DNA of 64,000 nt. Origin: Plumapathes pennacea (Eukaryota > Cnidaria > Anthozoa > Antipatharia > Myriopathidae). Shown piece by piece: positions 15,009 through 64,000 of the stretch. Below the pieces are notes generated by a model. It had not been told where the DNA came from and searched no databases. It was given only the letters and a program-made list of their open reading frames with translations. The position numbers were made by a program, and so were the translations under genes. Location of the stretch: positions 9,251,170 to 9,315,169 of the forward strand of contig OZ038467.1 of NCBI GenBank assembly GCA_964036295.1. Reading direction: 5' to 3'. The first letter of the stretch is position 1. Every line of letters begins with the position of its first letter.

Positions 15009-15110
15009 CAATGTGAAGTGTACAATGTGATTGACACCGAGTACCGATAATCAGGCAGCCCTGTCCAAAGCACACTTTAAAAAAATGAAAAAAATACAGC
15101 AACCATGCGA

Positions 15111-15560
15111 ACACTGCTATTAGAATGTACTCATAAAGAACTTTTATTTGAGTGGTGACACTTTTAGGTTTCATTTGACAGTTTAGTTGTTTGAAGTGGA
15201 CACTGCTATTAGAATGTACTCATAAAGAGCTTTTATTTGAGTGGTCACACCTTTAGATTTTATTTGACAGTTTAGTTGTTTGAAGTGAACACTGCTATTA
15301 GAATGTACTCATAAAGAACTTTTATTTGAGTGGTCACACCTTTAGGTTTCATTTGACAGTCTAGTTGTTTGAAGTGAACACTGCTATTAGAATGTACTCA
15401 TAAAGAACTTTTATTTGAGTGGTCACACCTTTAGATTTTATTTGACAGTTTAGTTGTTTGAAGTGAACACTGCTATTAGAATGTACTCATAAAGAACTTT
15501 TATTTGAGTGGCCCGTCATACCTTTAGATTTTATTCGACAGTTCAGGAGTTGAAAGTGAC
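15111..15560. repeat. Five-copy tandem array of an 89-bp unit
   Basis: The word ACACTGCTATTAGAATGTAC starts at 15111, 15200, 15289, 15378 and 15467, giving an exact 89-bp period. Units differ by a few substitutions. A sixth degenerate unit follows to about 15620. A single related monomer lies at 37979-38060. Confidence 0.92.
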
Positions 15561-22796: not shown

Positions 22797-24605
22797 ATGG
22801 CGGACAACGAGTACGCTGTCAAGCAGAACATATTCCTTGGCATCTGTGTGTGTCTGTCGGCGATAGTCACCCTCGCAGTGAACCTGAATGCCATCTTTTA
22901 TCTGCTGGTGTTCAAAACAGGCTCATTCAACCGACAATCATACAACAACCTGCTAATGGGTCTCCAAGCCATCATGGGAGCGTGCTTGGGCCTATTGGGC
23001 TACACATGGACCGCAGCCGGCCTTCTGACGGGAACCTGGCCTGCAGCAAATATCGGCTGTTCTGCCGCTACTTTCTTCCTTCTCTTCTTCGGCACCATGG
23101 ATGTTCTAATCACGCTACTCATGTCCGTGGAGAGACTCATCGCGTTGAAGTTCCCCTATCGTTACAAAGAGCTCATTACGTACGAGAAGATCCTGGTGGC
23201 TCTCGCGTATTTATTCGTTCACGGAGCGGCGCTTTCAGGCCTTCCACTTTTCCTCGATTCCGTGGAGCTAACGAAGGAACCGATCGCCATGTGTCTCTAC
23301 TCAATCTCGTCTCATAGCACAAATGAGAAAGTGGTAGTGCATGCCTTTGTGATCAACTTTTCGCTTTGTTTGGTCTGCATGCTCACTTGCAATGCTTTTG
23401 TGTTAGGTGCTCTGAGGCAAATGCAAAACACTGTAAGTACAACGCGCCACCTCGAGAGTAGGGATCGAGAGTCTGTTATATTCTCCAAGATGACGGGTAT
23501 GATGGCTTGTGCATATCTTCTGTGTTGGCTGCCTGTCGTGGTGAGTACGGCCTCCATAGTGTCATTCATTCATTCATTCATTCATTCATTCATTTTTTTT
23601 TTTTTTTTTTTTTTTCGTTTTTGCCTCTTTTTGCTCGGTTGGTATTGATAGAAGGTATCCTATTAGCCCGGACCCAAAAGCACGACTACACTAGTTCTAC
23701 GGCACTCACAATAAAAATTCTCATAACCACTCGAGAAGAAAATGCATGAGTATGTGAGTAAGTTTTTATTTAATTGATATGCCAATCAGGAAGGCTTTCA
23801 GCTGCACAGCAAACTATCGGCTAATGCCACGATCTGCGTACTACAATGATCAATCTACATGAGAGACTAAGAGAGAAGTTTGAAGTTGAACTCTCATCTA
23901 TAAATCAATATTTTAAATTTTTAATGATTCAGTTCTTTTTTTTCTTTACCAAACTTGGCATTCTATTCACAATGGGATTGAAATAGGAATCTTAATCAAG
24001 CTTTAAATAACTGAGCCCTTAGTAGAACCCCTAGTGAGCCCCTAGTGTTATAAGTTCACTTCCTTAAGCCGCCTGTTAGGGCGCGAGGTAAGACAGAGAC
24101 TGCAGAACGTTTCACCAATTCTGGATGCCACATGTCAGTGAAGTTACAAATGTTTGTCAACTCTACCCTGTTATACCGTATTCTTTTAGGATTCGATCCT
24201 AAAATTGGGCAAATGTTCGGTCAGTGTTCTGGTAAGACAGGTTTGCACTGTGCATGCGACTTTTGTTTATGAGTTTAGACAGTTCTCGATCGTAATTTGC
24301 AAGATATTTATCGTTTAATATTCTGTTTTCAGGTGCGGGTTTTGGTCATTTACTACATCGACTGGCGAAACATCTACTTTGACATCTTTGTTTTCTCGAT
24401 GTCTTCCGCTGACCCCTTCGTTCATCCTGTCACATGTCTACTGATGAGCCAGCGATACCGCGCAGGTTACAAGGCGACACTGTACAGATTTATCAACAAG
24501 TTCAGGGAAACATGCCTCAGAGCCAGATCTACGCCACGGGTGGATCCAATCTCTATAGTAAGCACATCGAACACGAATAATGTTAGTTTGAGTACTGTGA
24601 ACTAA
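22797..24605 (+). CDS. Class A (rhodopsin-like) G protein-coupled receptor, orphan
   Basis: Two exons, 22797-23540 and 24333-24605, join in phase 0 to give 338 residues. Hydrophobic segments match seven transmembrane helices. TM3 is followed by ERL in place of DRY (VERLIAL). TM3 and extracellular loop 2 each carry a Cys able to form the usual disulfide (NIGC; AMC). TM6 has CWLP. TM7 has DPFVHP in place of NPxxY, and there is no retinal-binding Lys, so it is not an opsin. The DP in TM7 recalls prostanoid receptors, but this is too little to assign a ligand. The tail is short and Ser/Thr-rich (STSNTNNVSLSTVN). The intron begins with an ATTC microsatellite and T run. Confidence 0.88.
23562..23615. 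repeat. ATTC microsatellite and poly-T tract in the GPCR intron
   Basis: ATTC/TTCA units are followed by about 23 T, starting some 20 bp after the exon 1 splice donor. Confidence 0.9.
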
Positions 24606-28539: not shown

Positions 28540-30672
28540 CTATATGCACATTATCAATGCTACATAGAATGCAAAACCGTAAACTCTGATAGACACGACG
28601 CGACCCGAAGATCTGCTTTTCTGTGCCAAGACCTCTTTGCCGTAGTCAACAGTTCCTGGCGCTCGGGTCAGAGTCGGTGACTGCGAAGACCGAACCACCT
28701 TGTACGGAGAAACGGACGAGATCTTCGAAAACCGTGCAGTTTCCGCTGTATATTCATCGCCCGAGTAACCAACTTGAGACGTGAGGAGCGGGCGCCCGTC
28801 AGAATGTGATACGAACGGAGGATTTGCAATTTTGCTGAAGGTTAGACCATTCGGAGCTGGGTTTCTCGTTTGGAATGCTTCGTAGAGCCTTTGCACTGGG
28901 GAGAAGTTGATTGTGTTATAGACTTGAGTAAGCCTTATGGTTGACTCCATCCGCGTGGGAGAGGTACCACCAGCTCCACTTGATTTCTCGGGTATAGTGT
29001 CCGAGCTAGACGCCCCAAATCGGGTGGTATTTAGAGTAACCATGGTTACTGCCGACTCGGTCAGCTTAGTTGTGACAGTCGGCACCACACTTGGTGATGT
29101 CGTCATGGTAACCAGGTCGGGCAGAGGGCTAATCAAAGGACTAGACGATACTTTTATCATCACTGGTTTTGCTTCTGCATGCAATTGGGCACCTATACAA
29201 GCCAAAACAAAACGTACATGTAATCACTACAGCCATAACCTTTGACTCCTGAAGATGCTTTAGCTTCAGCAGTCTTAACTCAAATGTGATCAGGAGCAAT
29301 TTTCTCCTTCAGTCTCCTTCAGTCTCACAAGGTAAGGAGAACCAAGCACTTGATAGCTCGGCTCAAATAGAAGCCGATTGAACTAATTCACTCTCACTAC
29401 ATCACACATACAGTTTCGTCTCGATTAGCTGGGAGAATTTAAGATCTGAAGAGAAACAAAGCAGCTTGAAACTGTATCAGTCGACAGAGTTTCGAACGCA
29501 GTGCTGAAGCATCGTGTATAGCGCATTCGTAGTATGCTAAATATGGAATTGGACCAACCCGCGCTGAAGTTCGATGTATTCTGGAGTCCAGTCTCCTGAC
29601 AGTAGTTTTGCGTGGGACATTGACCAGTATCGCACACGCGTATGATGTCGGAACTCTCGCGCATTTCGACATCATGTAAGATCCCTATAGTGTCACTGTA
29701 TTGGAATCGCCCGAGACAACCGATGAAACGCCTAGAATCAAGAAAATGGACGTGTTTAATAGGACAAAGTTCAAAATGGCTGTCAGTTGGAAATTTGGAA
29801 AGTATAAAAGCTCAGACCGAATGGAATTGACAGTATGAACCCGAATGCAATTTGTGTTTAATAACGTTTCCTCGTGGTTTCTTCCTCAAAGTTAAACCAA
29901 ATGCAAATTAGTTTGGCTCCGCATTCATCAAAATTGTTTTTACAGACTCTGTGATTGGCGGTGTAATTACTTTTTAATTGGTTTTTGTTTCCGACAAATT
30001 TCATCCGAAACCTGGCATATTGATAAAAAAAAATTGATATGTAATCTTTCCAAAAAAAGCCACCTGGCACTTCAAGTTTCTTTTAATCATGAGTTTTTCA
30101 GTCGTTAGCATGAATTATTGAAACAACAAAATGCTTCAAACTAACCTTTCCGACTCATAGTAGTCTCTGTAGAAAGCAATCGACGACACTAGGGAATCTA
30201 CCAGCTCCATTGACCTCGGAAAGCTTCTAACAAACAGTCTTCTTACAGGGTTGAAAGGCGTTTCCTGCATGCACTTGATAGTTTTGAAAAAACGACCATC
30301 AACCGAAAGGTTGAAAATCTCAGGGCTTCCTTCGAGGAGAACTCTGTGCCATTCAGAATCTGCAAATTCTCCTTGTAAAAGGAATTCTTGCTGACGGCAA
30401 CTGCCCAAGGTGATCTCCATCTGCAAACCTTCAGTCTTCATCTGTAATTTCATATAGGCATAGTTTCCGTCATCTTGATAGAAAAGCATTCCACTCTGGA
30501 TGTGCGTCTTGAAGACGAAAGTCATTTTTCCCGAAATGTTCCACGGCTCATAAATAGCAAAGGCATTGCCACTAAAGTAGGCAATGTTTGGATTTGCAGT
30601 TTTCGATTCCGAGGCTTTGGTTTCCAGTACGAAAATACCGTAAAACGGCAGCCACCAAAGTAGCAGTAACAT
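28540..30672 (-). CDS. LamG protein with Cys-rich module, mucin-like stalk and hydrophobic C-terminus (paralogue A)
   Basis: Three exons join in frame: 30146-30672, 29559-29731 and 28540-29192, about 450 residues. Exon 1 gives a signal peptide (MLLLLWWLPFYGIFVLE) and a laminin G-like domain (GMLFYQDDGNYAYMKL, then DSEWHRVLLEG). Exon 2 gives the LamG-closing RRFIGCLGRF and a short Cys-rich segment (VCDTGQCPTQNYC). Exon 3 is Ser/Thr-rich, likely O-glycosylated, and ends in YGFAFYVALIMCI, a terminal hydrophobic tail that suits GPI anchoring or membrane insertion. The ATG at 30672 is chosen because it opens the signal peptide. Exon phases match those of paralogue B 3 kb away. The donor of exon 2 (GTTGGT) is weak, so this join is the least certain. 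Confidence 0.7.
29866..30020. mobile_element. CCAAT-rich MITE family, partial copy
   Basis: Contains AAAGTTAAACCAAATGC, GTGATTGG and a TTCATCCGAAA end. It lies in intron 1 of the LamG paralogue A gene. Confidence 0.5.
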
Positions 30673-31619
30673 GCTGGAAAGTGTCACAGATTAGTGAGTG
30701 CCGAGTTGAACAGACTATGCACCAAATAGAAGTTCAACTGCATGACCACGTGGTTGTCTTTTTGGAGAGCCAGTCACATCTGACTTTAAAATTTAAATTG
30801 CCTCATTCAATTAAATTCGTACGCCATTCAACCGCAGGACCGCAGGGATCGCTTAATTTGAAACTTCATTGTTGAATACGGCAAAATCTTCAGCAACAAC
30901 CTTCAACAGCAAAAATTTAGAAAATGGTCCAGCAAAATACTACAGTACACGGTTAATGTTTCCAAATTAGTGCTGAGCCGGGAGCTCAGGATGCAGTATT
31001 ATGCACGAACTTGGACTACACACCACTGTAGTGATAATACACATGAATGGTTCCACAACTGAAGAACTGAAAAACTTTTAAACTATTTTTTTAATTTTAT
31101 TCAACATGATTCTTTACTCTGAGTATTCAGTGATTTAAAATGCTGTCTTGAATTATAATGAGCCAGCCAGGGCAAATCTAATTATTATTCATCTTCAAAG
31201 TTCATATACCTTGCACGATTATATTGTCTGCAGTTTTTATTTTCATTTTGAAGCACGGGATCCCAGGAAGCTTTCTTTGGGAAATCTCCTATTTATACCT
31301 ATATGCAAAGTTTGTCATACTGGTCTTATTATAAAACGGGCGTAGTGGGACAAACTTACTATCAATCGGAAGAACTTCCCGGGTCGAAAGACCAGTCTCT
31401 TTTGGTGACCATTTAATTCACTTGGATATATCCAGAACGCAAAAATTTAACCGGACAAATGATCTCCATTTTCATGCCTTGATTTCTTAAACCACAAAGG
31501 GAAAATTAATACGTCAAACGTGATCAATTTACGTCAGTTCGAAGTAGATAGCTTCTTACATAGTCAATAACAAAATCCACGTCGTACTTTCTTAGAAACT
31601 GCGCGCAAAATATAGCTAC
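30673..31619. other. Spacer between LamG paralogue A and the hypothetical gene
   Basis: No supported gene. It probably contains the promoter of paralogue A near its lower end and any 3' exons of the minus-strand hypothetical gene at 31620-32044. An exon-like frame near 31368-31440 on the minus strand (FWIYPSELNG) could not be joined. Confidence 0.45.
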
Positions 31620-32044
31620 CTCTTCACAGCATGCAGTGTAGAATCGACATTTTTCGGATCATTCTGCTTAAGCATGCAGACTTGCTGAGGTTGCCGAGTA
31701 ATAAATTTGACCTCGAGCCAGCAGTGCATATTGAGGACTTTTAAAATAAAATCCGCATTGGCATCAAATTTGCATTTTGTGATGGTTTCGACAAACTGAA
31801 CTGATTCCTTTCCTCTAAAATGCTGTTCCCCTCCAGGACGGACGACATCCACATGCAACTATCTGCACTCGGTATGATTAGCGTATAGCGCTTATAGTAC
31901 CACATACCTTCAAAAGTGCCCGTACATCTCATGCTTCAGCTTACCAGGACGGTGCTTACTCCGTGTCACTAGCCCGGACAGCCTGTCAGTGTCCGTTGAG
32001 GCCAGAATCACCATTACGGCTTCACCGTCTTGTTCGCCCGCCAT
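31620..32044 (-). CDS. Hypothetical gene, two tentative 5' exons
   Basis: An ATGGCGGGCG start at 32044 opens exon 1 (31945-32044; MAGEQDGEAVMVILASTDTD). A tentative exon 2 (31620-31800) continues in frame with FVETITKCKFDANADF and LNMHCWLEVKFITRQP and ends at a GTAGCT donor. The exon 2 acceptor has a poor pyrimidine tract and other acceptors are possible, so the join is uncertain. The 3' end was not found. No family was recognised. Confidence 0.35.
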
Positions 32045-33836
32045 TTTGTATCGCTTGGTAGCCGCGCCCGTCAAAAACTACCCCAGGGGAGGAGTAAAGG
32101 GACAATTTCAGTTCGTCGCATTTACCTCGCGCAATCGCTCTTCGCTTTTTTTTTTCTTTCTTTCTTTAGTCTTTTGTTCAAACCATGGTGGCATGGAGAA
32201 AGCGTCGTCCTGATCAACAGAAGCTGAAAATATCGCGAACGATTTTTAGCGATAAAATTATGTGCAGTGGCTGCAACGCATTGGAGCCTTTGACATGAAT
32301 ATGCAACAAGGTTGCGTGAATTTGGAATTTGGTCAATTTTTGGCGCAAGCTCCGACGGCTCCCACAACAACTGTACGTTACCTGAGTTCAACGGCTTGGA
32401 GCACTACGTGAGCATATAAATTCTTCCTGCCGTTCTCAGTGTGGTTGTGTTTTGTACATTTCCATGTCTGCGTTTATCATTAGAGTCACCCAGTGGGGTG
32501 TCATACCTGACTAAACAACTTTTAGCGCAACATATCGTTGCAAATCGACCAATGCAACATCAGCTAAACCTAGGGGACAATGGCTTTGGGAGCCAGTTGC
32601 ATTATCATGACAGAAAAGAAGCATGCATGAATTTCAATTTCTCTTTTCATTCTCATACCACAGTTGTCATACAGTAAAGAGAATTTAGCACTTCATAGCG
32701 TGTTAGGATAAACGCACCTTTCGTCACTCAATATATTTCCTTTAAAAATGGTAAAGATAATCAAGACTATTGGTAACTTTCTAGAAATGCCTTTCCTAAT
32801 ACCGCCGCAGAAGACACTTTTACAACTCGCCCCTGCCTCCTCCAGTCTCTTCTTCCCCCTTCCCCAGCGAAAAGCTGACGCGAGAAAGCTGGGACGAGCG
32901 CAAAGCGTGAGCAAGGGAGTTGCTTTCCTTCTCCTTCCCATCTTTCTCCGCGCACGCTCCCTTCCCTTCCCATACTTCCTCGCGCACCTAGTTGGAATCG
33001 AGGAGGAGCGACTGGGGACGAGGCAGAGAACGCCCTATGAAATGGAGAGTCCCGCCTACTCACTAAGCAACACGTGTGCCCGATTACTCGAAACCTGAGC
33101 GTAGCACGCAATACGACGTAATAACAAAATAAAAAAAAGAAAAAGCATTAGTTGAACTCAAATTGTTTTCTCGCCGCAGGCTTTCAGTCACGCCATACAT
33201 AACTTAAGAAGAGTTAAGATGCTGACTAATTATTAGAAAGGACATTAATTTTGTTTGCTCTTTTTAAATAAAGCCTTAGTCTGTGGTATCACTGAGGCCC
33301 TGCCAACATAATACGTTTTCAAGAACCTCAAAGTATTACACCGGTACTGATTCACAGCTATTATACTGATTCACAGCTATTATACTGATTCACAGTCTTG
33401 AACTTAGATTAATATTGTTGATTGATAGTAGGCAGTTAAGATATTTACATTGCTAATCTCGTGGTTGTACAGCTAAGCTTATAAAGCTCTGCCTGTCTTT
33501 TATAATCACCTGCATAAAACTCAAAAGTGCAATTTAATCTTGAAACGTCTCTATCATGCTATCAACTACAAAGGATTCAGTGCCAGTTGTAGCACTTTAC
33601 ACATTGTGGACTGTACAACCCAAACAGGGAAGGCAATGAAGTCGCACAATCAATCTACTCCCTAGTCTACACGTATTGCATGTTGTTGCGTTTTTTTCTT
33701 ATCGGGGAGGGGAGGGAGGAGGGTAAAAGCGTTCCTACTATGCATTGCTGCCTTGAGAGTGCATCAATCTCTTCATCGAGACTGTGCGAACAGAGGCATA
33801 AAACTACTGCCAGCCTCCCACAGTTTTCCCCAGTCC
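32045..33836. other. Intergenic region, no supported gene
   Basis: Several open frames near 32.7-33.1 kb lack any family resemblance or splice context. A short tandem repeat lies at 33346-33395. The 5' end probably includes the promoter of the minus-strand gene starting at 32044. Confidence 0.55.
33346..33395. repeat. Short tandem repeat, 19-bp unit
   Basis: ACTGATTCACAGCTATTAT is repeated two and a half times. Confidence 0.9.
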
Positions 33837-35355
33837 TCATACTTCTACATCTTGCTTTGGACCTTTACTGTTTTCAGAGCTTACTTCCTGTGTTTGGGTC
33901 TTTTGTTCTGGCGTATACGAGCCCGCGTACCGCCTGTGCCAGCGTAACACCAGGAATAGTGTCACCAGAACAGCTGCGGTTACGGCTGTTGCTATGACAA
34001 CCAGGAAGATCGGCCCGATTGGAGAGCCGTCAGTCTCGGTTACAATTTGCTTTGGTAACTGTTCTCTCGTCGGCTTTATCTTCACGCTTTGTGTTGACGG
34101 GACCGAGGTGCTTTCTTTACCTAAATAAAAGCACGTCTTGTAAGAATTATGCTCAAAAGACAAAATTAAAGTAAGGAAGGCTTTCCTAAATTGTAGTTTT
34201 ATCCATTTGTCTGCCTGTCTCCTTGTTCCTGTCGCTGTATTTTCTATATTTCTGTTTGTCTGCCACTTTGTGTGTTTCTGTCACTGTCTTTGTATGTTTT
34301 TCTGTAAGTTTCTGTCTGTCTGATTCTCGAACTTTCTTTTTGTGTCACTCTCCCTCTGTATATTTAATGCTTGTCTGACACATTCTGTCTCAGTCTGCCA
34401 CTGTCTCTTCGTCTATTCCACTCTTCGGGGGAGGGGTAGGGGATGCTTTTGTATTTCAAATTTAGCACCCTATTTCAAACAAAATACAAAATTTGCTACA
34501 CCATTTCAGATGAAGACAGATAAATCCTATTTCAAATAGAAATGCTGAAAACGATACCCTTTGTGGCAGCACATACCTATAGGGCTTATATATGGGAGTG
34601 ACGTCTGTATTCTTGCCTGCCTATATACAACAAACGATCTACACATCTCTTCTACAGCAGTATTCCTATCTGTAAGTGTATTTCTTTGCCGACCTGTTTA
34701 AAAAGCGACACTAGTGACGAGAACACGCATGCGTGTCGTGCGTGATTAGAAAAGCAAGAACGACTCTTCCCTTCAGTTCCATTTCGACTCACCTGAAATT
34801 GAAACATTTCCTTGCTGACTTGACACTGGTCTGGTTACCAACTGCGTCGCAGTAGTCTGTAAATGTGCTACAATCACTGCCCCGAAATTTCTGAAGACGC
34901 TATGATTGTCAGACTGAGCTCTGACAATCACCTTTACCTTGTCAAAGCGAAACTGTTGCAAAATCCCAGAGAAATTTTTCTTTGAGACAGATTTTGTTAA
35001 CTCTCCCTTAGGACCTCCTCCGATGTACATCTCAGCTTTTTCTTTGTAGAAATCAAGTCTATTGAATTTTCCAGGGACCTTAGTCGCGGCGATCTTGTTG
35101 TCGATTATCAAGGAGACGTTTAGCTTGTTGCGTTGGACTTCTATCCAGTGCCAGCTGTCGTCGTGAAGCGAACCTTGCCCTCCTGTCAACATAATCTCAC
35201 CTGGAGATGTTTTCAGGAAACAATCAATCGATGTAGCTATCAATCAATAAATAAAAAAATACATAGCCAAATAGTCAAGCAACAAACAAACATATCGACT
35301 GACATAAAGTGCATGTCTGACAAATGAGCCAGCCAGTCAGTCAGTCAGTCAATCG

Positions 35356-35396
<41 letters not shown>

Positions 35397-38300
35397 AAAC
35401 AGGCAAGTAAACCAATCAATCAAGTATATCTCTATCTGACAGACAAATCAATCAATAAATCGATCTATCAATAAATCTATCAATATATAAATCAATAAAT
35501 CAAACAGGCAAATCAAAGAACCATTCGTCAATAGGCAAATCTATCAGTCAAAGCACTAGATCACTAAGTAGCAGCGATGATGATGATGATGGACAGCAAT
35601 GGAGAGGATAACAGCTTTATGTCATTCACAATTTTTATTTTACTGTTCGTACCTCCGCCGTGATCCATTTTCACTAAAATGCTGCCCCCTTCCAACTCCA
35701 CCATTAAGAAGTCTTTCTGTTTCCTGTTCCTGAGACCAGTCTGTAGCACGAGGCCATCTGGAGACCGTGTACGTAATCTGACTGCCAAGTATCTGGACCT
35801 GAACGACAAATCCTGCACATCCTTTGTCATGTTAAACAAGAGGTAGCTTGAACCGCTCATCTCAAGGGACGGGGATTCTGCAGAGTTAAAAGAATCGACT
35901 GGGTTTAAACAATAAGCATATTTATCGGACCACGACTAAACATGGTCTTTAATTTATAAACCGATACCAATCGATGGTCTAAAAATGCAATTTAACTTTT
36001 GTCTAACCCTGGTTTACACAATCTTCAATTTAGCGATAAACCAGGACTAAGTTAGGCTTTGCTTAAAAATTGGCCCTAACAGTTTACCTACTGGTTCACG
36101 TCAACACTTTTGCTGAGTACTCGCACCTTGTCTGCAAAAAGGTTCCTCGTATCCAGTTCCCCCGCAATTGCACCGAAAGATCTTTTGTTGATAAATGCAT
36201 TTGCCATTTCGATCGCACTTGGAACAAGGATCTGTGCAACCACTTTCGGTTCCACGGGACATGTTCAGTTTGGCTTTGCGAAAAGTTCTTCCAGGTCCTT
36301 CAGTGTACCTCACTCCACTTATGCATCCGTTAAACCTGAAATAAGACAAACAAGCCACAAGAATAAGAACAAGGATAATATTTTAGAAATAGGAGAAGAA
36401 GAAAAAGACGAACAGGAGCAAGAATAAGAGCGAATCCACGACCAAGAGCAACAGCAAAAGCAGGGACAAGAATAACAACAAGGAGGACAGGAACAAAAAT
36501 AGGGAGAAGAACAAGTACAGGGACAAGGAAAAAGAGCCAATAGCAAGAACAAGGATAACGAAAAGGACAAAACCAAGGCACAACAAAAACAAAGAGAACA
36601 AGTTCTGTAAGAACCATATTCCAGGTCTTAGTCTGCATCAGTCAGCCTGATACAAAATCAAAGCGTTCAGCATGCAATGGTGTTGATGGTCACAACAATG
36701 GCGGTATAGAAGTCGTGAATTTGATCAAGGCGGACCAACTGAAAAGCTATTTTAACTCAAAGGAAGTCGTGTTGAGCGACACCGTGCCCCTTTTATGCTT
36801 AAAAATGTCAAAAACGTCAGACTTTATCAAAAATCCAGTCAGCCTACTTGTGCTTTGATCAAAGTCTGGACCCTGGGGCACAGTATGGGACCCTGTCATC
36901 CTGTTAAGTAAAATACCACGGAATACCATGCACGCCTTTGACCTATTTCTGCGCACGGAGGGACATTTGGCCGCTTGTAATTTGGCAAGATGTTCACCAA
37001 GTACCCCGTGTTCAATCAGGGCTCATGTCCAGATGCCGTGTTCACAAAGCGTTCAATACAAATGAAAACGCTTGTTAGTATATTAAAGTTGTATACGCTT
37101 CCCATCTCACATCCCCGTATTTACAAAAGACAGTGTCGTGCAAAAGGGCTTGGCCGACCGTTTCGTACGGACCATTTCTCATACTTAGTATGAAAGATGA
37201 CAGCGAATTATGGCGGATTCATTCAAAAGCCACTATGTGAATAGCACTTACGAACTCTCCTTAAACTTGACAGTTCGTATAACTTGTTGTTCGTATGAAC
37301 TTCCTTACAAACTGAATTTCGGTCTCTGTCGTCTCGAGCCAAACGTATTGATGTACTGTGCATACCAGGTTTTATTTTATATCCAATTTTTGAGACAAGT
37401 TTCTAGCGATATCCAGAAAAACAAGTTATGTTATTATCTGATTTTGGCGATCGAATGGCTGGGAGTCAGCTTAAAAAAAAACAATGCATCATTTATGGGG
37501 TTGAAAGTTAAACTTTTCCATGAAAAATGTATGATGCATTCTTTTGAATAGCTGATTTACTACTAATTATTGTTTGCTATAATGCTACCGATGTTCATAT
37601 TCCCAAGAAATCAGCAGCAAAAATGTACCCTCTGCTAACGAGTGAAAAATAAACGAGTGGACATAGTAAAATCGTATAACGCAGAATCATACTGGAAAGC
37701 ACAGATCCTTATCAAGCAGAATTGCCATGAATGAATTTTTGTATGGTGAGAATGGAAACGATTTGCTTTCACATCAACAAAGTGAAGATTTTTCCTCAGA
37801 CTGAACGAGGAAGCATGGCGTAAATTAAACAGCAGCTGTAGCTTAGAACGACAGCTGCGCGAAATGAATAAACTTAACCTCTTCCACTGCCAATATTTCT
37901 TTGTCCAAATTAAATTTAAAATGCAAAAACATTTATGTAAGTACATATATGTACAACCTTCTCTCGACAAAAACATGGACACTGCTATTAAAGCGTGTTT
38001 AAGAGCGCTCATTTGAGTGGTCACACCTTAAAGTTCCATTTTGATAGTTCAGGAGTTGGACGGCTTGTAGGTTGAGTCAAATTCGACTTTCATGGCAGTG
38101 AAAGAATTGATGTAAAAAGGCTCAAGTTAGATTTTTCGATAAGGAAAACACGTATGCAATACCTTTTCTCTGCATAATAAAACTCGTAAAACGACGAAGG
38201 AAATGCCAGGCCTTGAAGGTCAATCTCTTTTGGTAGTCCGCCGAGGAACATGGCCCCGATCAGTTTCGTAAAACCTTTGGGTGCGTCCTTGGAACAGTTG

Positions 38301-38671
38301 ATGAAAACAGAACGCGTTTGGTCCACAGTAATAGTAGTTTTCTCGTTGTTAAATCCGATTCTAACGCGGTGCCACTTAGAATCGGCAAAATTACCCTCCA
38401 CGAGAGCCTTTCTGCGGCTGCACATGAACATGGCCAGTCGTAATCGGACTCTTCCATCAGTGAGGGACACGTCCAAAAATTCGAAATTCTTCTCGTCTTT
38501 GTAGAGAAGGAGGCCATTGGGTTTGTCCGTTTTAAAATATAACACCAAGTCACCCAGGCTAGGTGTGGTCCAGGCTTTGTACTTGGCATAGGATGACAGC
38601 GCTGCATCGAACCAGAGGCACGAGGTCGTTTGTGCAAGCGCCACCAAGCATAAAAGCATTCCAATAGACAT
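33837..38671 (-). CDS. Neurexin-like LamG-EGF-LamG transmembrane protein (paralogue B)
   Basis: Five exons join in frame: 38163-38671, 36127-36335, 35653-35877, 34793-35200 and 33837-34120, giving 544 residues. In order: signal peptide (MSIGMLLCLVALAQ), LamG domain 1 (NGLLLYKDEKNFEFLDV, DSKWHRVRIGF), the closing FNGCISGVRY, an EGF-like module (CSKCDRNGKC, FRCNCGGTGY), LamG domain 2 (GLVLQTGL, DSWHWIEVQR), a juxtamembrane stalk, a transmembrane helix (IFLVVIATAVTAAVLVTLFL) with RWHRR stop-transfer, and a 33-residue tail ending DVEV. LamG-EGF-LamG is the neurexin module; neurexins also have a short tail with a hydrophobic-x-hydrophobic PDZ ligand (YYV). A role as a cell-surface adhesion or synaptic-type receptor is inferred. 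Intron 1 carries a purine-rich tract and intron 3 a CAAT repeat. Confidence 0.88.
35331..35395. repeat. CAAT/CAGT tetranucleotide microsatellite
   Basis: CAGT units pass into about ten AATC units; degenerate ATCA/ATAA text continues to about 35500. It lies in an intron of LamG paralogue B. Confidence 0.9.
36345..36605. repeat. Purine-rich AAGAACAAGG low-complexity tract
   Basis: About 260 bp of A/G-dominated text with recurring AAGAACAAGG, GACAAGAATAA and GAGCAAGAATAAG words, strongly strand-asymmetric. It lies in intron 1 of LamG paralogue B. Long frames here (Leu/Ser/Phe-rich) are artefacts. Confidence 0.75.
37979..38060. repeat. Single dispersed monomer related to the 89-bp satellite
   Basis: Begins ACACTGCTATTAAAG and shares TTTGAGTGGTCACACCTT with the array at 15111-15560. 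Confidence 0.75.
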
Positions 38672-46663: not shown

Positions 46664-49039
46664 ATGGCGCTGACTAACCCTAAAATCCCTCCTCGCTATG
46701 CAGTGTCCGACTGGCACACATCAAATACGGTTATAAGGACGAACGCCGAGAGACAACGAGATGCTTCGCATCGAATCCGCCAAGAAAGTCGATTTCTGCG
46801 GAACGAGACAGACAACCACACTCGATGGACTCAACATAACAGCAACACTAAGCTAGAGAAGAGAATTGAAGACATCCATGATTGGCGAAAAAGCCTTGAG
46901 AAGTGTCTTGCCGACACGGACAACGAGATTGCACTTCTGACGCAGGAAAAGGAGAGAACAGAGCGAGCTTTGGAGGCGAAGAAGGTGCCTTTGGATATTG
47001 CCTTGGAGTGCTTGATGCTCAGGGAGCATCGACAGGCTATCGACCTTGTCCGTGATGGAGTAGAAGCCCAGCTACACAAGGTATAGTGATAAAAAAAAGT
47101 ATCTTTGGGATCAGATGAACTCGACCTTCGGTTGGAAATTGTTTCCAGCAGGTTTGTTTACGACTAGGTTTATCATTGTTTGCTGAAACAATCTGCTTAT
47201 CTTTCCAGGAGGTGGAAGTGATCGAGGGTGCAAAAGCCCTTCTTCAACAGAAAGTGAACGAGGCATTTGAGCAATTATGGTATGTAAAGAGAAAGACTGC
47301 ACTATCAAGTTTTGCATCAAGTACTGTTATTATGAACACAGCTGCAGCGAGATCATGGAATTATTCTGATTCTTTATTCGCCCTTAACATTTTGGGGAAG
47401 TCACTCAATGATTCATTTTCAAAAGCCATCTTCATCAGGATTTTTTTATGTACAAGTCCCCTCAGTTACATTCATGTCATTTTGGAAAATCAGGACACAC
47501 TGTAGGTACTGGGGGATTTAAAAAGGGTTATCTGATAAGTTGACTAAAATCAGCTGTGTGCCAACTTAATAATTGACACTGAAGTCCTTGTACTGTCCTA
47601 ATTAATATTTTCTTATTCTGCTCTAGCCTGCTTCAGGAGGCTCGTCACCAACTTCATTTGGACCTGACAGACAAGTACACCGCTTTGGAAATCGATGGCG
47701 AGTGCTACATGCTCAACAATAACTCTGCAAACATTGGTTTCCACATCAACCCAACCCGCACAGTAAAAGGTAGTGTGACACCAGAAACATGGGATGCATT
47801 TTCCAACTACAACAAGCAGCGGGCAGAGGCAGAAATGAAAGCATCAAAGCACCTAAGAGAAGCAATCTTTGCAACCCTCACACAGACCGCCAATGATGTT
47901 GAAGCCCAAAGGCAGGCAACTGAATATGCATTCCGCAAAAGAATTCATGAAACGGAGCAAGCAAAGTCAGAACTGGAATGGCAACAGAAAAATGTAAGAG
48001 AAAGATCATATCTAAGCCCAGTTTGCCTGACTCCATAGTTGACCCAAGTTCTGAACAGCTATTATTTGGTCACTCAAATCAACTTGAGTTGACTATTGCT
48101 GAGAGTCAACCCAAGTCTATTCAAGCAGTTTTTTTTTTTAATTGAATGTGAGTGACTTGGGTTGACTAGCAAGTCCATTTGGCCACTCATTGCAAAGTCC
48201 ATCTGATTTTCAGCAGGGGTCCATTCAACCAGCAAAATCTCTATGTACATGCAACATGCCAAGTGTTATACACTGTAGGCACTTCTGTGTGTAATACCTG
48301 TATTGCTTTCTTTTCAGACAATGCAAGAGATTTCTACTCTGGAAGCAGACATTCAGGGCTTGAAAGGATCAATTGATGACAAGAATGCACCTATGATGGT
48401 AAGTGGCAAAAAGTTGAACAGTAAAGGTTTCACAGCTGCAAGTGTTTCATTTATTGCCTGTCTCTCCCTCCCTTTGATGTGAAGTATTGTATGTCCTGTC
48501 TTACTCATTAATCTGTAACTCAATCTTCTCTTCCAAAGGTTGCTCAGACTCGCTTGGAGAACCGCACCTACAGACCCAACGTGGAACTGTGCCGAGATGC
48601 TCCCCAATACCAACTATGCCACGAGGTTGCTGAGATCAGTGGCTCCATCCGTGCACTGAATGAAAAGTTACGAGAATCTCAGAATGCTCTGCAGGCACTC
48701 AAGAGCAACTTGTCTCAGATCAATGAAGATTTGGCCTACAAGAACAACTCGTTAGCCCTGGACAACAGGTGTATGGAGGTCCGCAAGAAACTGCGTGAAA
48801 TCCCCCACAGTATGATGGAGACCAGCCAGGATTTTTCGCGCAAGTTTCAAAGTAGTCTGCCAGCAGCCACAGAAAGGGTTGCAACACACCACCCTGAGCC
48901 ACAACCTACTGGCGCTGTGGCACAGTACTCGCCCCGTGTATCTCCCACTGGCCAACACTCGCCACCCCTTGCAACAACCCAGCGTTCACCAACTTTTGGT
49001 AGTGGACAGCGACAACGCTCTCCTCTTTTAGTCAACTGA
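46664..49039 (+). CDS. TEKT2: Tektin-2
   Basis: Five exons join in frame: 46664-47080, 47209-47279, 47627-47993, 48318-48398 and 48539-49039, giving 478 residues. The tektin signature RPNVELCRD is in exon 5. The order of motifs follows tektin-2 rather than other tektins: DWHTSNTVIRTNAERQRDAS, VPLDIALECLMLREHR, KEVEVIEGAKALLQQKV and AEMKASKHLREA. Tektins are filamentous coiled-coil proteins in the lumen of axonemal doublet microtubules. The protein is about 48 residues longer than human TEKT2 because of a Ser-Pro-rich C-terminal extension. An AATAAA lies at 49299-49304. Transcription is probably driven by the RFX-type divergent promoter. Confidence 0.96.
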
Positions 49040-55708: not shown

Positions 55709-58700
55709 ATGATGGTCTTACATTTGGTGGTTTTTCTCCTGCTGTTTTTCATCGAAGAAAGTGCCTCTGTGTGCTATGAGCCTAATTGCAAAGGTGAGTC
55801 TTACGTCTACAGCATCTTAACCTTTCAGAAGGGCACAAACACCACTGAACTTTGAATTACCAAGCGGCCGTTACTTCGCGAGGCATACGCGATGCAGTGC
55901 ATGTTTACTATACTCGACTTATTTAGCTTTATAAGTTATACTGTGTTAAACAAATCCCATGCAAAATTTATGTACTGTACAATAAAAGAATGTTATTATT
56001 CACTCGTTAAGATTTGTGAGGTAAATGCAGAGTCGATGCAACAAGAAACGTTTCCGCCATTTCTCTGATTCTTTGCACTTGTATGACTCGTGACTCTAAT
56101 GTACAACTCAGGCAAGTGTCCATTTTATAGACGGTGTCCGCTGTTCTACTTAGACTTCAGGTAATTTTTCACCAGGGGCATATATAATTTCATTCCGAGA
56201 ATGGTATTTTAAAGGGCTGGGTGAAGCTTCCGCGTATAAAAATTCTTCAAGTGCTTCCGAAAAATACTTTGTAACTTTGCTATCTACAGTAGAAACTTTA
56301 TATTTTAAAAGCCGTCGTCTTCTGCCGTCTAGTGCGAAGGGGCCTTTACAACAAGTAATGCACTCTTTGGTCCGTGGAATTTCTATAATTGAAAGTACAA
56401 TACAATGAAATGTTTCTAAGACGAACACCCTTGGAACCGTGGTCTTGGTGTCCGTTTTATAGAAAGTTTAGATATAAGTGAAATTTGGCCAACAAACCCT
56501 GTACAGCTTGTATTATGCGTCTTATACCTACGTCTGACTTGAGAAAGTTCGCTGTAACTCAAATCCTGAAAAGGAACGGCAAGAGCTTTCTATTAATATA
56601 TTTTTAGATATTTCATTTTGCATAAGTCTTAATAAACTCTTTTACAGCTTGTCAGACGCCTGTGCTGAGTAATTTGAGCGACGTCAAATTCAGTGCTTCT
56701 GGTTGGGAATCGCCATATTTTGCCGCCAGGCTGAAACTTTTCAGCGTTGGGGGCTGGTGCCCACCGAAGAATAGTACTGGACATTATGTTCAAGTAGACT
56801 TCGGAAGAGTCCAACGTTTGACAAATATCACTTCACGGACATGGCAAGCAGCGGGTTCATGTAGCACGAACTTCAAGCTTGACTACGCGAACGACACGTC
56901 CAGCAATTGGTCAACTTATCAGGAGAATGGAACAGACAAGGTGAGTTTTGATGACTCAAAAATAGAGCACCTTTCAATTGCCATTCAAATATCAAAACCA
57001 AAGCACTGCAATCACAGTGCCAATCACAACTGTAAGTCACCCAGACGCCATAATCAGCTATCACCATTTTAATTATTATTCTCCGCACTGTTTAACGGGC
57101 GGTTTCCTGATTAACTTTCAAATAGCGCTGCCTGGCGCCTCAGTATCATGTCGTACCGCCAAAGAAATAACTAATCGACTTCTGTCGCAATAAAAAACCC
57201 GTATTCAAATCGGATTTGCGTTTTTCGCATCCCAGGTATTCCAAGTACTACAACACACAAGCTTGAATGGACTTATTGACCCAGCTGTGGAAGCGAGATA
57301 CTTTCGTTTCGTAATTCAACCAGGACATAACGAATCTCTTTGCCTGGAAACGCAGGGGTTGAGTTCTTTAGCCGACTCAGCATTCAAAGCGACTGGCTCG
57401 CAAGGGCCATCTTCTGCACAGTTGCTGAAAACTAAAGGTGTTGGAGGGTGGTGCTCACCTAAAAATAGCTCCGGACAATATGTCCAAGTCGACTTGGGAA
57501 GTAACAAGCTCGTGCGAGCTGTAACAATGCGAGTATGGCAAGCGGCTCCTAATACGACCAGAGTGAATATTACCTACTCGAAGAACAATACCGACTGGAC
57601 AACTTATCAAGAGAATGGAACAGACAAGGTGAGACTTCATAACCTTCACTCTAGTTTCTCTTTACAACGTACCTCAGAGTGGGAAGACGTAGTACTGTAT
57701 GGAAAATGGGAATACCGATAGCATTCTTTATCGCTGGACCAATGACAATTAGTATACTTTCACAGCTTCCATTTTAAACTCTTTGATAAGTCGTGCGTCT
57801 TTCACTCAAATAACCACAGATGTTATGTATATTATACAGCTTTTTATTCGTCAAGCTTCAATCTGATAAAAGTTGCACTAGTTAGAACAAAACCCTAAAT
57901 GAAACGGCAATATTAATATTAAGTTTGTTGCTTGTGTTTCTTGTATCCTAGTTGTTCTTGGGGACTTCGAAATATGGATTGTATCCTACGATGGCAATTT
58001 TCCCGACAACCGTGGAAGCAAGATACTTTCGCTTCTCGGTTCTGCAACACCAAGAAATAGTTTGTTTGCAAGCTGAGCTGTACGAAGAAGGTAATGTTGG
58101 GATTATCGCTTTGACTGTGTATATTATTTTACACTATTCCCATTTCGATTAACGTGGGTGTGGATTAACTGTTGAAAACGAAACCCAAAGTACGTACGTG
58201 ACCCAATCACAGAAGCTGCAGTAAGAAACCGTTTCAGCCAATCAAATGCAAAGTAATTCATGAAGAAACCAGTCATCAGTACTGGCCTTTCTGCCGTTAG
58301 AATACCGCAATCAGGTTTATGATTTACTTTAGTTTGCTCTTAAGGAACCCAGAATGCTATTATTAATAATTGTGTTTAGGGCTGAGAGCGCAGAAAGCGC
58401 AAATCAACAGTCGTCCAAAAACGGCTCTTTTAAACATATTTCTTGCTACAATTACAACATGACTAGTACACCAAACTGAAGTCCCACTGACGTTGTACGT
58501 ACGCCGCCCAACTCAGGTGTTGTAAAAACAAAATTCTATCGGTTTTCGGACTGATTATCACGCAATGCCTATTTTCATTATTTTTTTTTCCTTAGAGGGC
58601 CCATTGATGAGCGACGAATACCCCAGAGATGTAACTGTTCAAGAAAACGGTTCTGCTACGTTGTATTGCGGTATTTCACGATGTCCCGAGGTGAACGTCA

Positions 58701-61700
58701 CATGGGAGAAGCAGGGAAATAGTGGAAAGATTTTCCCTGTGGGAAAAGAGCTTAATTTCAACAACTCATCACCTGCAGCTGATGATGGGTTCTATCGCTG
58801 CAACGCTACGAATGATATCAATGGTCCAGTCGCATCACGGTGGGCAAGACTTTTTGTAACTGGTAAGAACTTTTGTGGCCACAAGTTTACACAAGCATTG
58901 TTAGACGAGCACTTTAGCTTGAGTCTAATAGCCACTTTCAACTCTCTCTTTGGCCTTCTTCCTGAGTGCAGTATTGTAAAAAGAGTTATATTATGTAAGG
59001 AGGTGAGGGGACAGTCTACGTCAGTAAACTGCAGAGAATATGTTTCGGATTTTGACAAGTGGCCGTTCATTAATAGAGGATCAGCCACTTAATACAGGTT
59101 TGACAATATGAGGGTCATACGGTTTGAAAACTGTCAAATCGAGCCGTTATGCTCAAAATGGGCACAGTCTTTATCTCCATATATTTTCAGTGCCCCCAAA
59201 ACTGGATCCATCACTGCCGTCAGATCAGACTATCGTCGAGGGAAGTTCTGTGACTCTGCGGTGCAACGTGACGGCTGGCATTCCATCACCAAATGTCTCG
59301 TGGGAGAAAATTAACAGCAGTGTGGTTTTCCCCGATGGAGATGTTCTCACACTTACCAATGTAACCATAAATGACGTCGGAAAGTATCGGTGTAGCGCAG
59401 AGAATGGAGTGGGTTCCGTGGCCAGGAGCAAAATAGCTGAAGTTATTGTTCACTGTAAGTATCGGATTTTATATTCCTTTAGACTTTCCACAAAGGGCCC
59501 GTCCGGTCCCTCAAACACTGCAACAAGGCGCGAAGACTCTGCCTTCTCGTTTTTATTCTCTGCGCCTTGTCACAGATCTGAGTTTTAGGCTGGAAAATGT
59601 TATTCCACAGACAAAGACATTGCGTGCAGGTAGTCTTTGCTTTGCATAGTTTAGGATATGGATGCCCATTATTGATCAACATGGTACGAGTGGATTTGGT
59701 CGAAGGATTTGGTTTCAAAAGCACGTTATTGTAGTTGCTCCCTTTGTAACCATATTTTAACTGACGTTCTCCCCTCCTCTCGACAGCAAAAATCCCCCCT
59801 TCCCCCCTCCCCCCCAAATATTCACACATAATAAATTTCACGTTGAAATAGATACGGGCTGATGGTTTGACTATATAATAGTCACAGGTCATCTGTCACC
59901 CCGAGTGGCATCCTCAAAATGTGCACTGAGTCTTTATCTCCAAATGTTTTCAGTGCCCCCAAAACTGGATCCATCACAACCTTCAGACCAAGCTATCATA
60001 GAGGGAAGTTCTTTGACTCTGAGGTGCAACGTGACGGCTGGCATTCCATCGCCGAATGTCTCGTGGGAGAAAACTAACAGCAGCGTGGTTTTCCCCGATG
60101 GAGAAGTATTCACACTTACCAATGTAACCAGAAATGACGTGGGAAAATATAGGTGTAGCGCAGAGAATGGAGTGGGTTCCGTGGCCAGGAGCAAAATAGC
60201 TGAAGTTATTGTTTACTGTAAGTATCAAATTCTATATTCCTTTGGACTTTTCAAAGAGGGCCAGTCCGGTCCCCCAAACACTGCAACAAGGCGCGAAGAC
60301 CACCTCTCCCTTTCTATGCCTTTTTGTCTTTTTGTCTGCACCTTGAGTCACAGATCTGAGTATGAGCCTGGAAAATGTTATTCCAAAGACGAAGATATGG
60401 CGTGCAGGTTTTGCACCTTGCAGTTAAAACATGACCTCAATCATTATTAATCAACTGTAGGAGTAGGATTTGGCCAGAGGATTTCGTTTCGAAAACACGT
60501 TATTGTAGTTGTTCCCCTCTGTAATTTATACATTTCAACGTTCTCCGATCCCCTTTCTCGACAAAAAATTCCACTAAGTCACACCTGTGCGTTACATTTC
60601 AAACAGTTCCTCCTTCCCTTGATGGCATCAATCCAAAAAAACAAACAATCACAGAAGGCACATTAATGACGCTTCTGTGCAATGTGACAGCAGCCGCACC
60701 CGTACCGATAATTACTTGGAAAAAGATTGGAGATGATAATCGCGTTTATCCTCATGGTCAAACCCTGGCATTCAATGTGTCGAGGAAGGACTCGGGCCGA
60801 TATATCTGTATTGCTGACAACGGAATCAAGCCTAATGCCACTTCCAGTGTCGCTATTGTGAACGTCCAGTGTAAGTTAATAGTTATTTGGAAAGTCTGTC
60901 CAGACATGTCGGATTAATGAATTACTTACTTACTTATACTTGTCGGAGTAACATACAACATTTATAATAATACAGGAACTATAGTGTGGTGACAGTGACA
61001 CCAAAATCGACAGTGACAGTCGATATAACATTTTACACTCCCAGATCACACCTGTGCATTCTATTTTAAACAGTTCCTCCTTCCCTCGATGGCATCAATC
61101 CAAAAAACCAAACAATCACAGAAGGCACATTAATGACGCTTCTGTGCAATGTGACAGCAGCCGAACCCGTACCGATAATTACTTGGAAAAAGATTGGAGA
61201 TGATAATCGCGTTTATCCTCATGGTCAAACCCTGGCATTCAATGTGTCGAGGAAGGACTCAGGCCAATATATGTGTATTGCTGACAACGGAATCAAGCCG
61301 AATGCCACTTCCAGTGTCGCTATTGTGACCGTCCATTGTAAGTTAATAGTTATTTGGAAAATCTTTCCAGTATGTCGGATAAATGAATTACTTACTTACT
61401 TATACTTGTCGGAGTAACATACAACATTTATAATAATACAGGAACTATAGTGTGGTGACAGTGACACCAAAATCGACAATGACAGTCGATATAACATTTT
61501 ACACTCCCAGATCACACCTGTGCATTCTATTTTAAACAGTTCCTCCTTCCCTCGATGGCATCAATCCAAAAAACCAAACAATCACAGAAGGCACATTAAT
61601 GACGCTTCTGTGCAATGTGACAGCAGCCGAACCCAAACCGATAATTACTTGGAAAAAGATTGGAGATGATAATCGCGTTTATCCTCATGGTCAAACCCTG

Positions 61701-64000
61701 GCATTCAATGTGTCGAGGAAGGACTCGGGCCGATATATGTGTATTGCTGACAACGGAATCAAGCCGAATGCCACTTCCAGTGTCGCTATTGTGACCGTCC
61801 ATTGTAAGTTAATAGTTATTTGGAAAATCTTTCCAGTATGTCGGATAAATGAATTACTTACTTACTTATACTTGTCGGAGTAACATACAACATTTATAAC
61901 AATACAGGAGCTACAGTGTGGTGACAGTGACACTAAAATGGACAGTGACAGTCGATATAACATTTTACATTCCTAGATCACACCTGTGCATTCTATTTTA
62001 AACAGTTCCTCCTTCTCTCGATGACATCAATCCAAAAAACCAAACAATCACAGAAGGCACATTAATGACGCTTCTGTGCAATGTGACAGCGGCCGAACCC
62101 GTACCGATAATTACTTGGAAAAAGATTGGAGATGATAATCGCGTTTACCCTCATGGACAGACCCTGGCATTCAATGTGTCGAGGAAGGACTCGGGCCGAT
62201 ATATGTGTATTGCTGACAACGGAATCAAGCCGAATGCCACTTCCAGTGTCGCTATTGTGAACGTCCAGTGTAAGTCAATAGTTATTTGAAAGATTCGTTG
62301 GCAGACATATCGGATAAATAAATTAGTTACTTACTTAATATACGTATCGAAGAAAATATCCTTTAATAACATAGCAACTATAATGTGGTGACAGTGACAA
62401 TCGATATAACATTTTACACTCCCATAACACACCTGTGCATTCTATTTCAAACAGTTCCCCCTTCCCTCAATGACATCAATCCAAAAAACCAAACAGTCAC
62501 AGAAGGCACATTAATGACGCTTCTGTGCAATGTGACAGCAGCCGCACCCGTACCGATAATTACTTGGAAAAAGATTGGAGATGATAATCGCGTTTATCCT
62601 CATGAACAAACCCTGGCTCTCAATGTGACGAGAAAGGATTCAGGCCGATATATGTGTATTGCTGACAACGGAATCAAGCCGAATGCCACTTCCCGTGTCG
62701 CTACTGTGAACGTCCAGTGTAAGTCAATAAGTTATACGGAAAGTTTGTCTGGACAGCCGAATAAAGAACTTCATTACTTAATCTATTCGTCGGATTAAAC
62801 TCAGAAACATCTATTATAATAATAATACAACGACCAATTGCAGTGAGAGTGATAGTAAAATGGACAATGGTATAGGATTTGCCCTGAAAGGCTAAATAGT
62901 ACAGTGCAACACTGAATGACTAAAAAGGCAATCACAAGGGCAGCGCATAAACGTTAAAGTTAACGGCTTTTTTCAGCTAAATGCTGGAATTTTGAGGCCC
63001 TGCTTTTAATATTTCTGCGAAAGCCTCAGCATTCAGTTGGACAAAGGGTACAGAAAGTCTATGTGCAGTAGTGAACTCAGTTTACATACAGTAAGTACAA
63101 TGCATAAAAATCAAAATGACGTTATACACCGTTTACTAAAAATGCTTGTTCTTGATTGTTCCAGAGACCACATTATTTACCTTCATTTTCCCCGACAGAC
63201 CCTCCAAAAGTGCTTATAGTTTCCCCAAGGCAGCTGAAAGTACCTGAAGGAGCAAATATCACTTTGGAGTGTAACGTCACTGGAAATCCGGCACCAACCA
63301 TTGAGTGGACAAAGGGAAATGGCAGCTGTGTGGTGATTTCGTCGCAGAAGGCTCTGACGATATTGCATTTCAACCAAATCGACTCTGGAACTTATTTTTG
63401 CACCGCTAGCAATGGTATTGGATCTCCGGACACCGGCTCTGTCGTCGCTACATTTCTGCGTAAGTATTTATCCTGGGTAAAGAGTACCGAAACATAAGCT
63501 TACAGGGTACATAGAAACATGATATTTTTGGGTGCTTCCACAATCTTTTTTTGCACCAGAACCTTAGTTAGTTTATGCCATATAAAATAGTTCATACACT
63601 ATGTAGCTACCAAATTCAAAGTGCACTGTTTCTGTGCAATAAAAACTTTATTCTTCGCGATGCTGTATGTGAATAAATGACTTTTCAATTAATGAATCGG
63701 TTGCAGAAATCAAGATTTAGGCATTTGTAAATGAATTAAAACTGAGCCACGCCTTTTAATAATGAGTTCACAGAACTGTGCTCTTTATTTCTCATTAGAA
63801 CCGGAGAAAAAAGAGAAACTCGAATCTAAGGATGACACAAGTAAGTATTCCGTAATGTCTCTGCCCCTGCTTAAAAGAATGCCGAAATCATCAAATACTC
63901 CTTCAAGATATACATCACGCATAAGTGGCCGGAATTAGTCCACGTGAAACCCTCACCAATTTTTCCAGCAAAATCTGTTGAGGCAAGTATTTTATCGGGA
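55709..64000 (+). CDS. Discoidin-Ig cell-surface/secreted protein, 5' part
   Basis: Fifteen exons join in frame to 1,120 codons and the gene leaves the window: 55709-55793, 56648-56940, 57236-57628, 57952-58090, 58596-58862, 59191-59454, 59954-60217, 60607-60870, 61074-61337, 61540-61803, 62006-62269, 62455-62718, 63199-63459, 63799-63840 and 63969 onward. Order: signal peptide (MMVLHLVVFLLLFF), two F5/8-type discoidin domains (both with VGGWC and YVQVD motifs and ending VEARYFRF), then nine Ig domains, each with the Cys-Trp-Cys core (TLLCNV, ITWKK, YMCIADNG), then a charged stretch (PEKKEKLESKDDT) that may lead to a membrane segment outside the window. N-glycosylation sequons are abundant. 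Discoidin domains often bind glycans or lipids and tandem Ig domains mediate adhesion or recognition; a receptor role is inferred. Each Ig is one phase 1-1 exon. Confidence 0.9.
58164..58433. mobile_element. CCAAT-rich MITE family, diverged copy
   Basis: Contains CCAATCACAG, CCAATCAAATGC and a right end AACAGTCGTCCAAAAACGGCTC. It lies in intron 4 of the discoidin-Ig gene. Confidence 0.5.
59185..60400 (+). repeat. Tandem duplication of an Ig exon and its flanks (unit about 763 bp)
   Basis: Exons at 59191 and 59954 are very similar (both encode TAGIPSPNVSWEK and ENGVGSVARSKIAEVIV). The intron sequence after each (GTAAGTATC, then AACACTGCAACAAGGCGCGAAG) is shared too, which shows a genomic duplication rather than convergence. 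Confidence 0.9.
60540..62740 (+). repeat. Five-unit tandem array of near-identical Ig exons (unit about 466 bp)
   Basis: Exons start at 60607, 61074, 61540, 62006 and 62455 (periods 467, 466, 466 and 449) and all are 264 bp. The introns between them are also near-identical (CACACCTGTGCATT before each acceptor). Encoded domains differ at few residues (AAAPVP, AAEPVP, AAEPKP; GRYM, GQYM, GRYI). The last unit has diverged most. Confidence 0.95.

Follow-up and report, generated by a model that had tools for sequence, protein, structure and literature searches.

The stretch analysed here, referred to as the window, comprises 64,000 nucleotides of the Plumapathes pennacea genome (GenBank assembly GCA_964036295.1, contig OZ038467.1, positions 9,251,170 to 9,315,169, forward strand), and the element in question is a tandem array of five immunoglobulin (Ig) exons, units A to E, inside a gene predicted to encode a discoidin-Ig membrane protein. 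Tandem Repeats Finder (TRF) places a tandem repeat at 60579-62742 with a period of 466, 4.7 copies, 93% matches, 1% indels and a score of 3574, and a repeat search returned five copies at successive spacings of 467, 466, 466 and 449. Moreover, a 24-mer from the exon, searched with up to three mismatches, had five matches in the window, and 100 shuffles gave a mean of 0.00 and a maximum of 0; the five-copy Ig-exon array is confirmed as real and lies far beyond chance. Exon alignment, gene model and repeat search place the units on the plus strand at 60607..60870 (A), 61074..61337 (B), 61540..61803 (C), 62006..62269 (D; structure model with a predicted local distance difference test score, pLDDT, of 92.2) and 62455..62718 (E, the first to branch off in the tree described below). 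Each exon is 264 bp long and, in the gene model, in phase 1 at both ends; pairwise identity is 92.8-98.5% without gaps. A first-pass annotation of this DNA had described five units with a period near 466 bp and frame-neutral 264-bp phase 1-1 exons, and both descriptions hold. It had also reported that near-identity reaches into the introns, which is correct for introns A-B, B-C and C-D (94.6-97.5% mutual identity) and incorrect for intron D-E, which is 81.0-83.9% identical to these three with 28-29 gap columns. Beyond the array, likeness is limited to 27-28 bp at the acceptor in the intron upstream of A and to a stretch of ~150 bp at 68% in the intron downstream of E. The claim of a recent origin is supported to the extent that the tandem duplication is fairly recent, shared introns being the expectation under unequal crossing-over.

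The predicted gene and its neighbourhood

The array belongs to a predicted gene of 15 exons that runs from 55709 to 64619 on the plus strand (extended window coordinates), in which 14 of 14 introns are GT-AG and a single open frame spans 1,142 codons. The predicted order is a signal peptide, two F5/8 type C (FA58C) domains, Ig1, Ig2, Ig3, units A-E, Ig9, a linker, a transmembrane helix, A-R-R and the stop. Specifically, exon 1 (55709..55793) contributes a signal-peptide-like start (MMVLHLVVFLLLFFIEESASVC...), and a similar hydrophobic N-terminal open reading frame (ORF) precedes the first FA58C exon of C6b, one of the two full paralogues (C6b and C6c) considered below. The F5/8 type C domains were recognised by Pfam in the spliced N-terminal part (PF00754, two stretches, E 2e-31) and are encoded by exon 2 (56648..56940, first part of domain 1), exon 3 (57236..57628, end of domain 1 and start of domain 2) and exon 4 (57952..58090, end of domain 2). 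The Ig1 exon (58596..58862) is kept in both full paralogues, where its counterparts are 52% identical. Next come the exons of Ig2 (59191..59454) and Ig3 (59954..60217), which paralogue comparison, tree and repeat search mark as a tandem pair older than the array (59191-60217; 91% over 300 bp, spacing 763), with 90% amino-acid identity to each other and a ratio of nonsynonymous to synonymous substitution rates (dN/dS) of 0.20. Downstream of the array lie the membrane-proximal Ig9 exon (63199..63459; counterparts at 68% in C6b, 65% in C6c and 60% at C4:19.2 Mb) and the linker exon (63799..63840), which in the model is spliced to a transmembrane exon beyond the window end (C6:9315688-9315788, that is, 64519-64619). 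In the model, the Ig1 exon, the linker exon and all those between them have lengths divisible by three and are in phase 1. The predicted protein carries 47 N-glycosylation sequons, three or four per array unit, and a single C-terminal hydrophobic helix, recognised by its hydrophobic sequence alone, suggesting a single-pass membrane protein of the Ig superfamily (IgSF). Together, the two F5/8 type C domains, the Ig exons and this helix bear out the first-pass annotation of a discoidin-Ig membrane protein.

The array units have the features of the I-set of the Ig superfamily, namely an Ig sandwich fold with two cysteines and a tryptophan. When units A and E were scanned with Pfam, they matched Ig_3, Ig_2, I-set and ig, and neither of these two units matched V-set at E<=0.01; Ig9 matches V-set above the cut-off (E 4.8e-9), ranking behind Ig_3 (2.5e-17). 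Among the matches listed, the nearest folds to the unit model are neural adhesion and growth-factor receptors, and V-type domains (SIRP, T-cell receptor V-alpha) appear lower among the Foldseek matches listed. Structures of Alr, the allorecognition proteins of Hydractinia, were not found in the best 60 of 464 PDB sequence matches or the 50 matches listed per fold comparison, which excludes nothing.

To either side of the gene, a profile built from its own nine Ig domains, which could miss distant Ig types, was run against 1,616 ORFs of at least 40 amino acids on both strands of 128,830 bp (20 kb upstream, the window and 45 kb downstream) and at E up to 10 recovered only those nine. Within the reach of that scan, the gene does not lie in a cluster of related Ig genes of the kind known for Alr, and its two full paralogues are 3.3 Mb away. 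Pfam was applied to nine of the 15 listed window ORFs, four of the remainder belonging to the Ig gene and two overlapping submitted ORFs; these nine other long ORFs gave one G-protein-coupled receptor of the rhodopsin family, three laminin G, two tektin and three without a family, the assigned ones lying at window 22797-23645 (+), 30139-38671 (-) and 46664-49036 (+). The window also holds a tandem repeat with an 89-bp unit at 15109-15543 (4.8 copies, 94% matches). Elsewhere in the assembly, the mitochondrial contig C24 (17,711 bp) has a COX1 split by an intron with a reading frame resembling a LAGLIDADG endonuclease; the same contig presumably also carries COX3, ND4L and COX2. The gene order COX3-COX1-ND4L-COX2 is that of sea anemones. 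Metridium and Relicanthus are reported to have a cox1 group I intron that carries an endonuclease (PMC6890759). A comparison by green fluorescent protein gave no match and was uninformative.

Relatives, array history and tail

The genome assembly (290 Mb in 24 contigs) contains at least three genes with such an FA58C pair at E below 1e-12 (at least six matches; 150 of 357 candidates scored). Paralogues C6b (within C6:12.631-12.650 Mb) and C6c (within C6:12.585-12.598 Mb) lie on the minus strand and have 10 and eight Ig domains, respectively, as compared with nine in the window gene. In C6b a single exon matches the array unit at 71% identity, and a two-exon block has undergone a separate 2-kb duplication (97.6% identity); C6c has Ig-exon pairs at 86-88%. 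Repeat blocks cover Ig exons at C4:2.98 Mb, C4:19.19 Mb, C6:12.59 Mb and C6:12.64 Mb. A genome-wide Ig search was examined at its top eight loci: in L005, repeats over Ig exons reach 84-90%, L006 has an older Ig-exon pair at 73% and L004 has one 70% repeat with no exon assignment; the other five lack repeats of 150 bp or more. By these comparisons, exon duplication recurs in this gene family and at certain other Ig loci but is not general among them. When 951 bp of the array were searched at the DNA level against the whole of this one assembly (10 candidates scored), no second allele of the array was found, the next match being at 82%.

Several further arrangements were observed in the same searches. 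At C4:2983000-2996000 (L060, L054, L061) there is a larger array of 12 Ig exons with a 469-bp period in two blocks and a 1,813-bp stretch duplicated at 98%. At C4:16987197-17774249 (L020-L027), the 3' part of a C6b-like gene is present in eight near-identical copies, 63-161 kb apart and in strictly alternating orientation; they are 99.2-99.9% identical to each other over the best-aligned 1.5-3.3 kb and ~96-98% identical to C6b, no FA58C exon was found with them among the 150 of 357 candidates scored, and some of their Ig exons contain stops. A large palindromic amplification would account for this arrangement, unless it is an artefact of assembly. F5/8 type C domains (at least 172 matches, with 150 of 1,240 candidates scored) are heavily clustered at C2:13.75-14.58 Mb, C2:36.05-36.29 Mb, C5:21.47-21.59 Mb and C11:1.22-2.02 Mb.

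The history of the array was read from an Ig tree of 55 rows and 87 columns, in which 21 of 50 inner branches are well supported; it excludes Ig pieces below 70 amino acids (C4a_10130, C4dup_257) as well as the first two Ig exons of C6c. Units A-E form a single clade (90/81) that branches E,(D,(A,(B,C))). The only sequences that group with this clade (99/97) are the C6b exon and its C4 copy, and the tree indicates that a single ancestral Ig exon gave rise to the five units after the paralogues had split. Ig9-type exons form a clade of their own (100/99), as do the Ig1 exons of the window gene and C6b (100/99).

On this protein-derived topology, parsimony with changes classed one base at a time gives 17 nonsynonymous against 13 synonymous changes, as compared with ~76% nonsynonymous expected (two-sided p = 0.017), and pairwise dN/dS among the units ranges from 0.17 to 1.1. 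Exon divergence is below intron divergence in comparisons with unit D (A-D, p 2.9e-5; B-D, 5.1e-6; C-D, 2.0e-7). The units appear, overall, to lean to purifying selection. The comparison of dN/dS between units had been proposed in the first-pass annotation as a check on a recognition role; there is no sign of diversifying selection in the parsimony counts, the pairwise dN/dS or the exon-intron comparison of the units.

At its C-terminus, the predicted protein ends A-R-R-stop, three residues past the membrane helix, and the in-frame TAA follows R-R at the same place in the window gene, C6b, the C4 duplicate and C6c. In the three relatives of the window gene this site reads CGAAG/GTAAG, a good splice donor (the slash marks the putative junction), and in the window gene CGAAG/ATAAG. 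Because the donor-like GTAAG of its relatives reads ATAAG there, the window gene is most simply taken as tailless, perhaps through loss of the splice donor. A conserved downstream tail exon was considered and rejected: with the C6c tail as query, blastn gave no match at E 1e-3 in the tails of C6b, the C4 duplicate or the window gene, and the C6b and window tails share six short matches (33-86 bp, 6-15 kb past the stop, on both strands) that we read as scattered repeats. Among the matches listed, tblastx of the tails returned mostly low-complexity noise. A kinase or long signalling tail was provisionally set aside, the best model stopping three residues past the helix and the downstream ORFs being read by eye with no kinase profile applied; an intracellular tyrosine kinase is the feature that would mark a discoidin domain receptor kinase.

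Possible roles of the array

Our working hypothesis, to which we assign a probability of roughly 60%, is that the gene encodes a hexacoral single-pass protein in which an FA58C binding head stands on a spacer rod of Ig domains, with the number of units a weakly constrained variable of length and not a recognition code. By analogy, the array looks like ordinary growth of the spacer in an adhesion-type protein. We suggest that copies would arise by unequal crossing-over within the short introns and that, with exons symmetric in phase 1, such events would leave the frame intact. The binding head would be the FA58C pair, which is similar to neuropilin b1b2, and the sequon-rich Ig rod would be the spacer setting the reach of this head above the membrane. 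Because the tail has only three residues, any signal would need a partner, or the protein would be purely adhesive.

Several points weigh against this hypothesis. The spacer function is drawn by analogy, and the exon model was read from the genome alone with a start codon picked by eye. Constraint is not shown by every pair of units: dN/dS is 1.1 for A-C (7 nonsynonymous, 2 synonymous), 0.92 for B-C (3 and 1), 0.86 for B-E (12.5 and 4.5) and 0.76 for C-E (13.5 and 5.5), and because the B-E and C-E ratios rest on 17 and 19 changes and those of A-C and B-C on just 9 and 4, we regard the constraint as modest. Exon and intron divergence are similar for A-B (p 0.60) and B-C (p 0.14), which neutral drift of the newest copies would also fit. 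With respect to the tail, C6b, the C4 duplicate and C6c may carry a longer one, and the C4 duplicate does not provide evidence independent of C6b. Poly(A)-like hexamers follow the stop after 176 nt in the window gene, 91 in C6b, 93 in the C4 duplicate and 218 in C6c, which is weak evidence because such hexamers are often expected at 58-66% A+T.

The similar exon and intron divergence of the newest copies, together with the four repeat blocks over Ig exons and the repeats in one of the eight top Ig loci (L005), would also suit a neutral by-product, in which unequal crossing-over grows and shrinks the array with no effect on function, much as may happen at other Ig arrays of the genome. We consider this possible and hold it tentatively, given that all five frames are intact without a stop, that nonsynonymous changes are in overall deficit and that exons are constrained relative to unit D. 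Of note, constraint on single domains does not show that unit number matters.

Because the exons from Ig1 through the linker are all phase-1 multiples of three, the array could equally generate isoforms, protein length varying as frame-neutral units are left out in different combinations, whether regulated or random. This appears unlikely: isoforms built from near-identical units would be alike in nearly everything but length, and skippability is common to any phase 1-1 exon. An intron RNA structure for regulated splicing was examined and rejected; the four inter-unit introns fold to a 36-pair consensus without compensatory changes, a comparison of related sequences that has little power.

In the first-pass annotation, the array was likened to invertebrate allorecognition loci. 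In such a polymorphic receptor, as in Hydractinia Alr, unit number or sequence would differ between individuals and mark self. Alr proteins are described as having highly polymorphic extracellular domains and genes arranged in a complex (PMC11067881), and an IgSF single-pass membrane protein with a duplicated array in a cnidarian-type genome recalls them; a lone gene would be compatible, since some putative ALR genes of Podocoryna are described as single and outside the complex (PMC13119343). Nonetheless, the likeness is not supported: the units are nearly identical and lean to purifying selection, their fold is that of ordinary adhesion-type Ig domains, the tail in the model has three residues as against an Alr1 cytoplasmic tail that was used as antigen (PMC11876637), and the own-profile scan found no further Ig exons near the gene. 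These features do not favour allorecognition, which we regard as quite improbable here, and the present evidence does not identify an anthozoan allorecognition gene. Dense Ig-exon clusters are present, among the matches listed, at C5:9.80-10.43 Mb and C5:17.54-18.01 Mb, and these are better places than the window for seeking an anthozoan recognition complex.

A further conjecture, which we rate as a long shot, concerns the three genes together: a fixed head (two FA58C domains and Ig1) and a fixed base (Ig9 and a nearly tailless anchor) would be kept at a total of 8-10 Ig domains, with inner exons replaced by independent expansions, such that reach is selected and unit number possibly varies between individuals as a height-based recognition or adhesion cue. 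Finally, inflation of a shorter array during assembly is scarcely credible, in that each of exons A-E has at least one private change, the introns also differ, the last spacing is 449 as against 466-467 for the others, and the locus lies in the interior of a 23-Mb contig in a genome of 24 contigs.

What the locus offers is a clean tandem duplication at the level of exons, in a gene for a predicted hexacoral surface protein; a paralogue supplies the outgroup exon, still in single copy, and several comparable cases occur elsewhere in this genome. It could be used to test whether the number of Ig domains in adhesion proteins is neutral or selected.

Comparison with known systems

With Hydractinia Alr1/Alr2 the predicted protein shares IgSF membership, a single-pass membrane topology and a cnidarian-type genome; it differs in having a homogeneous array and no long tail in the model, and the own-profile scan of 128.8 kb found no further Ig exon. 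With the I-set adhesion molecules (IgLON/NEGR1, DIP, contactin, Robo, Dscam) the array units have fold and sequence family in common, whereas the predicted gene has an FA58C head, a fairly recent homogeneous array and no fibronectin type III (FNIII) domain in the model. FNIII domains are present in several I-set adhesion families. The cluster of diverged, alternatively used exons that characterises Dscam-type hypervariable receptors does not match array units that are 92.8-98.5% identical, and this candidate was set aside.

In searches of literature titles and abstract openings, no description of an FA58C-Ig architecture was found. The head is closest to neuropilin-1 b1b2, which likewise has two consecutive F5/8 type C domains and is the best PDB sequence match (E 3.5e-11), followed by CASPR2 and coagulation factor VIII; in the gene model, single-pass topology and little signalling tail would extend the likeness, and co-receptor-like action would, by analogy, fit the proposed model. 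In neuropilins, CUB a1a2 and MAM domains flank the b1b2 pair, and neuropilins are not known to have the nine Ig domains. Identity with neuropilin was discarded, as neither CUB nor MAM is among the six Pfam families matching the 391-amino-acid N-terminal part and nine Ig domains are present. Lastly, the tandemly duplicated gene families described for corals offer a parallel in the same group of animals, with birth-and-death by tandem duplication in hexacorals and receptor and adhesion families prominent (PMC10236652); the families described there consist of whole genes, whereas at the window locus single exons were amplified inside one gene.

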